Source: Allacma fusca
Lineage: Eukaryota; Arthropoda; Collembola; Symphypleona; Sminthuridae
NCBI GenBank assembly: GCA_947179485.1
Contig: OX359247.1
Span: 6,911,060 to 6,975,059, forward strand
Reading direction: 5' to 3'
DNA length: 64,000 nucleotides
In this document: positions 1,760-7,300 of the stretch, one piece after another
Layout: each line of letters begins with the position of its first letter
Position numbering within the stretch: position 1 is the stretch's first letter
Notes under the pieces: model-generated
Told to the model about the DNA's origin: nothing
What the model saw: only the letters and a program-made list of their open reading frames with translations
Databases searched by the model: none
Translations under genes and position numbers: made by a program

Positions 1760-2677
1760 AGGTCCATACTCCTTCCATATGTGCACTCACATATCTACGT
1801 AGATTGCTCACATGTAAGGATGTGTGTACTAAAATATTATAGGATGCATACCAACTCTTACTTTTCGTTTTGAGGCAGCCATGAATAAAGGGAACAAGTA
1901 AGTAATCGTGCATTTCTCCGCTTCCTAGATCTTCCCCTGCTTCTCGGTGCGTCAACTCCTCGTACATACTGGCACATAAGTGGGTTTACGCCCAAGGAAT
2001 AAAAAAGTTATATATTTTTTACTATTTAAGGGTGCCCACCCAGTACTGGAATTTTTTCCGAGACTTTATCACATTATTCCTTGCTATTACTCCAAGGTTT
2101 CTCCTTCCAGGTCGGATCTTGCCATGACTTTTAAATTCCTCCAATCCATTTAACTCCTGAACCAGATTTATTTTGAATACTTTTCCCTTAAAAGCCCTCA
2201 GTGTCTTCAAAATGCTCAATTAAAGGCTCCCATTTTAAAGCAGAATTGATGAAAGGCATTGAGGATATCTCCCCATGAAAATGATAGGAACCGACGTGCT
2301 CTCAACTTACAACAGTTAAATTTATGAGCAACGTGTAAAAGTCCAGGAATATGAGGAACAACTCGAGAAAAATAAATTATAAAGTCAGGGAAGAGAAATG
2401 CCATTAAATATTAACTAAAGATGTTCAGATGCAAAGCGTAAATCTTTGTGAAATCGCAATAAATCTTTGAGAAATTTTCCCAGTGAAACTCTTAGCAAAA
2501 AAAAAAAAAGTAAGATTACATTTTCTGCATATCTAACTTCCAGTGCTTAAACAAACTCAGGATTTGATATACTTCTTTCAGAGTGGGACAGATATTCGCA
2601 CGAGGCAGGCCGAACGTTTCTGTAGTCTACTGTAGGTACATAAGGCCTATGTATGTAATTATGGATCTGTATAGTTA
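1760..2677. other. non-coding sequence upstream of the transposon
   Basis: No gene seen. The only local structure is a pair of 16-base direct repeats at 2439-2454 and 2460-2475, plus an A12 run near 2498-2509. Confidence 0.55.
2439..2475 (+). repeat. two-copy direct repeat
   Basis: TAAATCTTTG-N-GAAAT-type 16-mers occur at 2439-2454 and 2460-2475, a 21-base period, with one mismatch. It is too short to name. Confidence 0.6.
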
Positions 2678-2679
2678 TA

Positions 2680-2834
2680 TCGTCGGTGAAGAGGCAAAAT
2701 GATCTAGGTGCATAATCGATTAGAATCAAAATGATCTACATAACTTTTTCCCTAAAGGCAAAATGAACTGGGTGCAAGCCTCTTTAAAAGCAAACTGATC
2801 TACATACAATTTTCCTTAAAAGCAAAATGATCTA
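2680..2834 (+). repeat. left terminal inverted repeat with five 32-bp-spaced boxes
   Basis: Box copies start at 2694, 2726, 2758, 2790 and 2822, an exact 32-base pitch, about three helical turns. Copies 1 and 5 are identical (GCAAAATGATCTA). Copy 2 begins with T, copy 3 has GAAC instead of GATC, and copy 4 has AAAC. Repeated sites in long inverted termini are typically transposase-binding sites; that function is inferred here. Confidence 0.88.
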
Positions 2835-2918
2835 AGTGCTGGTCTAATTTTTTTTGTGAGAAAACTAGCATCTGTAAGGAGGACACGTGGCTTATAAGGG
2901 CTAACCATGACTGTAATA

Positions 2919-2945
2919 CAGTCAATTTCCTATATAGTGGTTTCC
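2919..2945 (+). repeat. left terminal inverted repeat of inner element
   Basis: A 27-base repeat opening with CAGT and ending TGGTTTCC. It pairs with 3757-3783 with three mismatches. Confidence 0.8.
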
Positions 2946-3756
2946 AAGGGAGTGGCAAATTCCTGCCACTATATAGGGATGCCACTGTATGTTACTAATG
3001 GTTAACTATATAATATTAATGTTTATAGACAATAACTGTAACTAAATGTATTTATAAATTTATTTATTTTTACAGAATACTCAAAATTATGAGGTATGCT
3101 AAGCTTCATTGAGTTTAAGATATTCAGTAACTTTAGGTTTCCTCATACTATCAAATTTTTCAATTGCAAGGTCACCATTCCAGAAACCAAATTTCCGTCT
3201 TCAAATTCCTGGAATTATGAAAATGGGAATTACTTCCACTGAGTACTCTGCGGTTTTTTACTATGAGGTTTTGCTTGACTGTTTGTTTAATGTCATTTAA
3301 ATGTTCAATATAATAATTCAATTTATTTTAAAAAATCAACACGAATTGAAACTTATTAGAAGTGAGCCAAGGCAAAATTGGCATTGATTTGTGCGGTGTT
3401 AACTTAAGTCACGGATCATATGACATAAATTTAGCTAATCATACCAGGGCTTCAGTAAACCACAATAATAATCAAACTGTATTCACATTTGAAATTAAAA
3501 TTGAACCAACCGACATAAGCATTATTAACCGCCCGCACGTTTTATAACATCATGTTATACTTTTGTAGCCATTATCTAGCTAATTTTATACCAACTGCCG
3601 TTATAATTTCGCATTTTTTGAGCCACCGTAACACATAATAGTGACATTTTAGAGGGAATACCATTATAGCGGGTGCCACTATACTGTATACCTTTAACAT
3701 TGCAAACCCCTAGGGAGGGTTTCTTGATGCCATTAAAGAGGGAATGCCATCTAAGA

Positions 3757-3783
3757 GGAAACCATTATATGGGAAATTCACTG
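3757..3783 (-). repeat. right terminal inverted repeat of inner element
   Basis: Reverse complement of the left end with three mismatches, followed immediately by TA at 3784-3785. Confidence 0.8.
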
Positions 3784-4240
3784 TAGACCTAGGGTTGTGG
3801 GTTAATATTCTCTGAAGGGTTTGCTATTACTAAGGATCACTCCGGCAACTAAAGTTAATTTCACTTATTACATCTAATACATTTTTAGTTACGAAAACTG
3901 CAACATTCATTTATTTTAAAATCGACGAATTAAAAGACGAATCAAAATCACAGTCAGCTCATGTGTTAGTGTGCACATTGAATTGGTTTTCCCTTTAATA
4001 ATTCTCAACGTGGAGTTTTTTCAAATCGTATTCTAAGGTCATCACCATTATCATAACATTCGGAATCATTTTCAAATGTGAAATCATAATTGACAACATT
4101 TTTTTTTCAATGTTACTGAAAGAAAGAAATGGAGGCATTGGGGAATTAAATGCGTATATAAAAGATTTTGAATACCTCGCATTTTTGTACACCGGCATTA
4201 GAATGTGTTTACTTATATTGTTTTTATTATAATTTGTATC

Positions 4241-4394
4241 TAGATCATTTTGCTTTTAGGAAAAGCTGCATCTAGATCATTTTGCTTTTAAAATTCAATG
4301 CAAGTAGATCATTTTGCCTTTAGTGAAACTGCAAGTAGATCATTTTGATTCTAATCGATCATGCACCTAGATCATTTTGCCTCTTCACCGACGA
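4241..4394 (-). repeat. right terminal inverted repeat with five 31-32-bp-spaced boxes
   Basis: Reverse-orientation boxes (TAGATCATTTTGC) start at 4241, 4273, 4305, 4336 and 4368. Spacings are 32, 32, 31 and 32. The array length is within one base of the left array, so number and pitch of boxes are conserved between ends even where the filler has diverged. Confidence 0.88.
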
Positions 4395-4396
4395 TA

Positions 4397-7300
4397 TGCT
4401 CTTAAGCACGTACATATTTGGCTCTTTACCCGCAAAACAGTGCTACACACATACGGACTGCGTGCCTACGAGACACCGTTTACAGCCCAAGAGATGAAAG
4501 TCATTCGGGATGATACCTTGAGATGGGAGCTGAGTGTAATTTTGTATGGACATGTACATATGCAGAGCGAGCTGGGAAGAGAAGAAAGACAGAGTGAGAG
4601 AGGATCTTAAACAGAAAACTCGTTCGTAGGGAGAAGGCGCTAGAAAAGAGACAAGTCTCTGTAAATGAATATTTATAGAGGTAAGACGAGCAGCAAGATG
4701 GAATCGTAATTCAAATCCCATACTCCGACAATCAACTACTGGATAAAATGTCTTTACAGTAGGAGTAGTAGGAGGAAGCCTTCCATGGGCACACAACGCT
4801 ATCCACGTCCACAGTACTGTAAAAGTCACTGAGTCCAGAATTACATCCAACTCTGGAGGCAAAACTTACAATCCCGCCTTGGAACTCAACTGTTTGTACA
4901 TTGCAGGGCTACATCCTTACAGACTGTATAGCACAAAGCCGGAGGATCCTCATTCATATGTAGATACTTACAGACGTCATGTAGTTAGTTAGTTGCACTG
5001 GAATCCGGGAGTAAAGTCATGTCGTAAAGACAGGGGAAGAGATGACACACTCACCTTGCATTATGCAGAGCTCGGCTAACATTCTGTATGTATCTACATA
5101 TGACCAAACGTATATAGATACATATGTAGATAGTTGTAAGGAAGAATTTTATCCCAATCAAGACGAGCTGGGTGAACTAATTCCCTGAATTTATATTAGG
5201 AAGGAAACAAAAAGGAATATCATTATTGCTCAGCACTTTGTTCCAAATTCGGAAAATAATTGCCTATAAATTTTTAACATGTCTTAATAATCTATCCAGT
5301 GTAATTAATGCCCTTGCTCCCCTTCCCTGTCCATAGTCACCTGTCAGGCCATCTCCAGATCCGAGTCGTTTGCTCTTCCTGGACAGAAAATCTCCTCCAT
5401 GCCCCAATACTAGCAGTCCTATAAACTACATATGTATGGGAAACATCCCGGCACAAAAGATAGGGCTCTGATTTTGTCTCCTAAATTTCCCTATAAAGAT
5501 TATTTTAATTCGATTTTAAATCCCAAATTATACCTCCCGAACTACTTTTCTGTCATCTTTCCCAGATGATAATAATTAACCAGGAGTTCTTCCCTCTAAT
5601 TCATCCTGTAATATATTCTACTGTTGTAGCTTTGTATATCCATCCCGAGCTACCTAGAAACAGTTTACTTGTTAGAATTACTCGTAATTATGTCGATAAT
5701 GACTGTATACCCTGACGTGTTTTTCTTCAACCGACACAAAAGCACTGGATTCAGACACTGGGACAGAGAAACCCTGGGGGATTCGTTCCTCTAAGGTGGA
5801 AATCATTCCGGATAATAGTAGTTATATTACAGCACCTGCTTGCGCTTCAATTCATTAATATCCATTTACGTCCGATAACAAACAATGAAAAAAGCAAGTA
5901 TGTAGCTCCACAAGTGTGAGCCTCCCTCAATAGGATATATCTGTATATGTATGCTGTTTTATGTAAATATACCCTTTCAATAAGCTCGGACTTGGTATGA
6001 TACCATGGTGTGTATGTACCGTCAGCTCTAAATTTTGCCTTCCCCGCTCCTGCCATCCGATAATATTGATTAACGATTATTAAATTGTCCGTACATATGC
6101 GTATCAGATGGTGTAAGCCATACATCAGGAACTGGAGGGATTCCCATAAAAAATCATGGACAGGGAAAAAAATTGTTTCAGGAACGTATTCCCAAGAACA
6201 AAAAATCTTTCGAAATTCATCCTTAATCTGGATTACGTGCGGTTTTAACCCTGCTCAATACACCATTACAGCAACACAACATCAAATAATTGGGATCTTG
6301 AATAATTCTTAAAAGTCTGGATACTGTAGCTCCATATGAATTACACTGTAAGGAAAAGGCATATCTAGTGATATTAATAAAAATAACTTTCATATAAGTG
6401 GCACACATGCACCGTCATATTATGTACAGGGCAGGGATTCATTTCCCTTTTGTAAAGACGACTCTGTTTGGAGATGATGGAGGAAGGATAGATATCCAAA
6501 TACAAGCTTCCAGAGGCGACTGGGGTATACAATGAAATGGAAAAATCTGCAAAATAATAATTGTAATGTATGCAAATGGCAGGATGAGAGACTATCAAGC
6601 GGAGGATGAACCATCATTATTCCAGTCTATGTACAACTCATTAAAATGTCGATGTGAGTAATGGAACATTAAAAACAAAAGGGAAATAGAGCTCCCACCA
6701 AAGACCGACATTTATAATTTGTAACATGCATTATTGGGACTCATTATTATGCCTTCAGGATCTTATCGCTGATTAGGCAGCCTATTATTTGATTCTACTA
6801 ATTATCTGAATTGCCAACCGCGGGACCCAGTTGGAGAGATCTCAGTTGATACTTTCCAAGGCCCTCAGCCAACGCTCCTCCATAGTTGTGGCAGGTATCT
6901 ATCTATAGATATGTACGTAGATACAATCCTACCTCAGATTTGTACATGTACATACATACACACTGGGAATTGTTATTTGTGAGTATGCTGTACACATACT
7001 GCAGATGCTGCAAACGACAACCGAACAGTCTCTGTGGCAGAGGGACTATACTACTGTATGCTATAGGCAGTTCTACTTTCCTGATTCTAATCTCCTATCA
7101 TTTGATCTGTATATCTGGCCGATTGAGTGCATTTAATGCTTAAGCTGGGTAGTTTTAATGACGTGAGCCCCGATGAGGCTGTTTCACTTTCAACATCTCA
7201 ACAACCTCCCTCCGTTCAGAGACTGTAGATACACATGGTCAATGAGAAACTGTAACATGGGAATGATTCCTACGTGGATGTGTAACAGTCCAAGAGTATC

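Follow-up and report, generated by a model that had tools for sequence, protein, structure and literature searches.

The element in the window

The window analyzed here is a 64,000-nucleotide stretch (G000:C10:6911060-6975059) of a 392.7-Mb genome comprising 91 contigs. It contains a transposon with inverted ends, each made up of a short tip and an array of five boxes, and with a second mobile element nested between the two arrays (Table 1). Inverted complementarity of the two ends is 98% across the outermost 63 nt, and the longest open reading frame listed within the element encodes 67 aa. Rfam and tRNA scans of the whole 64-kb window were empty. The element shows inverted tips, a target duplication, many copies and the lack of a transposase gene, all features of MITEs and other non-autonomous elements. 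Our assessment is that this is probably a MITE-type, non-autonomous cut-and-paste DNA transposon of an ATAT-targeting group; this grading is a joint one, covering also the action of a transposase in trans on the phased boxes.

Table 1. Parts of the transposon in the window (window coordinates).
Feature	Position	Strand	Remarks
Family A element, probable non-autonomous DNA transposon	2681..4393	+	1713 bp; ~846 bp minus nested MITE
Left target-site duplication ATAT	2677..2680	.	Equal flanks in sampled elements
Left tip CGTCGGTGAAGAG, outside box 1	2681..2693	+	Genome-wide count of exact tip
Left array, five boxes	2694..2834	+	2694-2706, 2726-2738, 2758-2770, 2790-2802, 2822-2834
Nested TA-flanked MITE, CAGT ends	2917..3785	+	29-nt inverted arms 2917-2945, 3757-3785
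Right array, five boxes	4241..4380	-	4368-4380, 4336-4348, 4305-4317, 4273-4285, 4241-4253
Right tip	4381..4393	-	
Right target-site duplication ATAT	4394..4397	.	Equal flanks in sampled elements

The nested MITE, which we take to be pogo/Tigger-like, is absent from 18 other family A copies that were aligned with the window element. These copies read straight across the site as TGTAATTGACC, compared with TGTAATA...TAGACC at the junctions in the window. Locus L025 carries the nested insert in identical placement (positions 1721-2621; 99.6% identity over 901 nt) with a different left flank; this comparison covers the left flank, the right one lying beyond the stretch examined. Since L025 holds the nested insert in the host element at a second genomic site, the 1.7-kb composite of element and nested MITE has probably itself moved.

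Phased arrays and the repeat unit

Boxes of the left array start 32 bp apart at all four steps (2694, 2726, 2758, 2790 and 2822), and those of the right array, on the minus strand, follow one another from the tip inward at 32, 31, 32 and 32 bp. The original prediction of five boxes per end at a 32-bp pitch with a single 31-bp step thus holds for all ten boxes. All ten lie within two mismatches of CAAAATGATCTA and eight match it exactly, with approximately 0.01 exact matches expected by chance per strand of the window. When up to two mismatches are allowed, the motif alone shows no enrichment in the window (15 matches vs 13.7 expected). The longest phased chain, by comparison, comprised five boxes on each strand of the window, and among 300 window-sized Markov sequences it comprised one box in 291 and two in nine, with none longer; this comparison rules out a chance origin of the arrays.

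The conserved unit is larger than the 13-bp box that had been put forward: it measures about 24 bp (roughly TTAAAAGCAAAATGATCTAnnTGCA) and is joined to a freer stretch of 8 bp. Invariant over the ten units are A at -4 and -2, CAAA at 1-4, the T, G, A, C, and T of the box, and T at +15; C at +17 is present in nine of the ten. When units 2-5 of the left and right ends of this copy are compared, 72 of 76 letters agree at -6 to +12, as opposed to 23 of 52 at +13 to +25 (p = 1e-10). The left and right units also pair one to one, in that the seven letters up to the box start match best in register: two of 120 pairings are as good, the true pairing included, and two of 24 for the inner four units. 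We read this correspondence as pointing to a common origin, both ends presumably deriving from a single ancestral five-unit end.

Two other descriptions of the arrays were considered and rejected. A 64-bp double unit would require alternation of odd and even units, which was seen on the left only (rank 1/10 on the left, 7/10 on the right; 5 of 100 labelings for both ends jointly). A looser box scan scored additional boxes deeper in the element, at distances of 27, 28 or 67 nt, mainly at the right ends of family A. Since those in family A all sit at one fixed place in the AT-rich interior, we treated them as false; such a box may be a decayed sixth box.

Copies and families in the genome

A genome search gave 40 scored matches among 1195 candidates, all 40 at 100% across the left 155 bp. 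These 40 loci yielded 35 complete elements, as three lacked a tip pair in the stretch examined and two failed the orientation test, and removal of two flank duplicates left 33 copies of what we call family A. They lie 0.1-1.6% from a consensus of 845 bp; the set was selected by a perfect left end, and its variation is readable from the right end and interior only. Genome-wide, the exact A-type tip TATCGTCGGTGAAGAGGC occurs 768 times (377 + 391) and the reversed pattern never (0 + 0). A second, B-type tip, ATATCGTCGCTGAAGAGGCAAAATGG, occurs exactly 626 times (323 + 303), again with no matches to the reversed control (0 + 0). Many other copies with the same tips exist; the transposon family is real and was active recently. 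Family B elements measure about 330-390 bp and are nearly all terminal inverted repeat (TIR), with two arrays and little else; 20 of the 21 copies are 327-391 bp long and one, L136, is 503 bp. Family C, of which we saw three copies, measures 77-83 bp and carries one box at each end.

A longer copy encoding a transposase behind the same tips, which had also been envisaged, was not found among the copies examined, and none of the loci read (L077, L101, L103, L111, L115) contained one. Likewise, no plus/minus tip pairs 2-8 kb apart occurred among the matches listed (100 per A- or B-type tip pattern, contig C1). L077 has a decayed array and a different interior lacking any open reading frame above 98 aa, and L103, judged by eye, seems to hold an LTR-like insert. 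The exact tip at L101 and L115 has an identical upstream flank at the two sites and no box array behind it; this tip sits within another repeat. Three B-type tips lie on one strand of contig C1 at a spacing of exactly 3965 bp (G000:C1:40630071, 40634036 and 40638001), probably through tandem duplication of a segment carrying a copy. Exact-pattern scans of viral contigs and of the genome contigs collection returned no matches, and one further such scan returned single matches in ten bacterial records, taken here as chance.

For the analyses below, we used a wider sample of 103 distinct elements with two recognizable tips (at most three mismatches in 15), drawn from the window plus loci L011-L140. 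Selection was non-random and combined the window, the 40 perfect-left-end loci, the 30 tip places that come first on C1, 14 loci picked for their odd length and six of ordinary length, 16 unpaired tips, 20 family B loci and four odd ones. Several of these loci repeat an element or contain none, and copies with decayed tips are excluded.

Target site

Equal 4-bp flanks were present in 93 of the 103 sampled elements (ATAT/ATAT in 91 and AAAT/AAAT in two) and unequal ones in ten. Equal flanks of other lengths were found in two elements at 6 bp and in none at 5 bp or at 7-10 bp. The window element, initially described as flanked by TA, is therefore corrected to one flanked by ATAT on both sides. 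At locus L017, joining the flanks of a family A copy with one ATAT creates an open reading frame that spans the junction and matches the Pfam GIY-YIG family across it (E = 0.0013; 19.5 bits, under the curated cut-off of 22.6). The interrupted GIY-YIG-type frame presumably belongs to a Penelope-like element. Such an empty site agrees with duplication of ATAT on insertion; duplication of TA within ATAT would leave an identical one.

The same ambiguity bears on whether the element is instead a Tc1/mariner-type MITE that targets TA and carries a larger set of inverted and direct repeats, on the pattern of Sleeping Beauty. ATAT includes TA, and a TA duplication combined with ends of the form TCGTCGG...CCGACGA would produce the same letters at an ATAT target. 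However, L031 and L119 have AAAT on both sides and no TA, which counts against a TA duplication, and almost every copy has A...T as its outermost flank bases. Tc1/mariner tips also begin differently from the tips found here. We consider a Tc1/mariner origin unlikely.

Box number varies

At the 206 ends of the sample, five boxes were scored in 173 cases, zero to four in 25 and six to nine in eight, with 75 of the 103 elements scoring five at both ends. The scan undercounts arrays with a broken box, and rechecking of 18 loci revealed that part of the low scores were such undercounts. A small deletion interrupts box 1 in L106 and L113, an insertion lies behind box 1 in L091, and one box was missed by the scan or is decayed in L099, L117, L118 and L124. 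After this recheck, true counts span one to nine boxes per end. Clear losses were seen in L013, where exactly one 32-bp unit is missing, in L067, L073 and L114, in the 1220-bp element of L140, and in family C with its one box per end. Clear gains were seen in L100, L107, L116, L127, L136, L138 and L139, the gained units being mostly 32 bp. The left array of L136 (G000:C10:42009180-42009930) has grown by four 36-bp units, off the usual 32.

The three family C copies (L137, 77 bp; L102, 83 bp; and a 77-bp copy within L140) share the core CATnCTTTTGTACAGCACT. Of these, L137 alone has ATAT on both sides, the flanks being ACAT/ATAT in L102 and ATGC/ATAT in the L140 copy. The presence of three copies with a single core at three sites suggests that the one-box form was itself copied. 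Variant counts and family C together rule out that the ends conserve five boxes as such; the number is inherited, yet it changes readily.

The pitch looks constrained

We scored 777 box spacings, of which 667 were 32 bp and 96 were 31 bp (763 together). The other 14 were 33 bp (three), 34 bp (one), 36 bp (five), 37 bp (one), 38 bp (two) and 64 bp (two); the scan accepted spacings of 30-38 and 62-66 bp and was blind to those below 30 bp, and no spacings came from the left arrays of L106, L113 and L091, which are broken. Single copies do break the pitch: L136 with four 36-bp steps, L069 with a 38, L086 with a 37, L120 with a 30, and L106, L113 and L091 through their deletions or insertion at box 1. 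Much of the agreement within family A is due to recent common descent. Families A and B inherited their common layout; both take the 31-bp step from the second to the third right box, and the layout is thus older than their split.

The consensus arrays of families A and B align without gaps over 156 + 156 bp, with 63 substitutions and no indels (ends counted separately). In the family A interior, 96 distinct substitutions are accompanied by 14 non-homopolymer indels (19 indels when homopolymers are included); at this ratio, which comes from young copies and may fail over the longer A-B divergence, 9.2 indels would be expected in the arrays, compared to none observed (P = 1e-4). Given this absence of indels, the pitch looks to be under constraint, and the A-B comparison rules out a freely varying pitch. 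Two smaller comparisons are weak: the family A right array has one indel per 25 distinct substitutions against about four expected, too few to decide, and the left-right comparison in the window copy gives P between 0.04 and 0.64 according to which ratio is used. Of the original proposal that the ends conserve both number and pitch, the pitch therefore largely stands (763/777 spacings at 31 or 32 bp; no indels vs about nine expected) and the number does not (losses, gains and family C). Spacing, in other words, does not vary freely, whereas box number does.

Substitutions are also unevenly distributed. Between the A and B consensus arrays, changes affect 20 of 130 positions in the box, 18 of 103 in the box flanks, 23 of 63 in the free spacer and two of 16 in the tip, with the box less changed than the free spacer (p = 0.0015). 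The family A right end has 34 changes in 2032 spacer letters vs nine in 2132 box letters (p = 8e-5), 17 of the 34 spacer changes stemming from two shared variant sites.

These patterns can be set against a neutral origin, in which tandem duplication of one end unit, of the kind known in foldback elements, built the arrays; the unit would have no role and would set the pitch simply by its length. Such a by-product would explain the gains and losses of whole units in L013, L100, L107, L127, L136, L138 and L139, the growth of L136 by a 36-bp unit, and the single box per end of family C. It does not account for the retention of the box side but not the spacer, seen both within one copy (p = 1e-10) and between families (p = 0.0015), nor for the lack of indels where about nine would be expected over the 63 A/B substitutions. 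We therefore regard neutrality of the arrays as improbable.

Relation to known transposons

By its TIR, the silkworm element BmMITE-10 appears to be the closest relative found. It is described in the available part of its report as a novel family of 258 bp with an ATAT duplication, the TIR CGTCGCTGTCAAACCAAAATCTGCTATGTGCAA, many copies and possible recent expansions (PMC2997013). The TIR opens with CGTCGCTG, like family B, and the ATAT duplication is common to both (PMC2997013). In an ungapped comparison it equals family B at 24 of 33 positions and family A at 22, and none of 100,000 shuffles reached 24; BmMITE-10 was picked among 17 families after the ATAT match was known, and the comparison is by TIR alone. 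CAAAAT, CTA and GTGCAA, all in the first box unit, are among the identities with family B. BmMITE-10 differs in its length of 258 bp and in belonging to another genome. Three features place our elements with a BmMITE-10-like ATAT group, namely the ATAT/ATAT flanks of 91/103 elements, the CGTCG tip and the 24/33 tip identity. The words "subterminal" and "tandem" are both absent from the available text on BmMITE-10, in which an array thus seems undescribed (PMC2997013), and literature searches, as far as the sources were available, found no description of box arrays in the ATAT group. Another silkworm family, BmMITE-8, has a TIR (TATATCGACGCTTGAAAGGCAAAC) that by eye resembles ATAT followed by the tip and the start of box 1, but it is reported, in the same partly available source, as Stowaway-like, TA-flanked and 266 bp long (PMC2997013).

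Box arrays at transposon ends are already known, on the available parts of the respective reports, from Muta1, Tm1 and Galileo. Muta1 of Aedes aegypti has 145-bp TIRs with a 10-bp tip and nine 12-bp repeats separated by 3-4 bp spacers (PMC5225508), so five sites per end, thought unusual in the original prediction, have a precedent. Like our element, Muta1 combines a short tip with a phased array, and its derivatives vary in repeat copies (PMC5225508); Tm1 of root-knot nematodes similarly has a terminal motif followed by variable tandem repeats in each TIR (PMC3169594). A TIR composed of a short tip plus tandem repeats, as in our element, is the architecture of type 2 foldback elements, and is a matter of architecture rather than lineage. 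It would suit a Mutator-type foldback element like Muta1 or Tm1, both ends having the short tip and box array. However, Muta1, of the Mutator superfamily, has an 8-9 bp duplication, a 15-16 bp pitch, nine repeats and a known transposase (PMC5225508), and Tm1 has 13-15 bp repeats, mostly 8-10 bp duplications and a Phantom-type Mutator transposase (PMC3169594). In our sample, 0/103 elements had equal flanks of 8, 9 or 10 bp, the Mutator range, or of 7 bp. A Mutator affiliation is thus highly improbable.

The P element duplicates 8 bp. None of the 103 elements had equal flanks of either length expected in the P superfamily with Galileo (7 or 8 bp). Galileo, of that superfamily, differs from our element in its 7-bp duplication and its far longer TIRs and repeats (PMC3688188, PMC3573991). 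For Galileo, EMSA showed that the binding sites of a transposase domain lie in the TIR repeats, according to the available part of the report (PMC3688188).

Proposed mechanism

We propose that a transposase encoded elsewhere moves the family in trans and would recognize the repeated unit of about 24 bp. We know of no transposase for BmMITE-10 or for this element. At 10.5 bp per turn, the 32-bp pitch corresponds to about three turns and might place the bound molecules on one face of the DNA. Multiple bound sites could raise the occupancy of an end and aid the pairing of both ends, and the 13-bp tip would position the cut.

More tentatively, the elements may form an ATAT-targeting group without an assigned superfamily, the ends of which carry a phased ladder of transposase sites selected for pitch and not for number; its members in this one genome would form a natural series of doses, one to nine sites per end, with the 77-bp element itself copied. 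We raise this as a possibility rather than an expectation. If the mechanism proposed above is right, this genome offers a natural experiment on many-site transposon ends, with near-identical tips, one host, and one to nine sites. It would separate pitch, which is kept, from number, which is free, and models of transposase assembly should account for both. Under that mechanism, whole units would be gained by tandem duplication and lost by deletion. A single unit at each end seems the least with which an element still moves, and five boxes were the commonest form in the 103-element sample.
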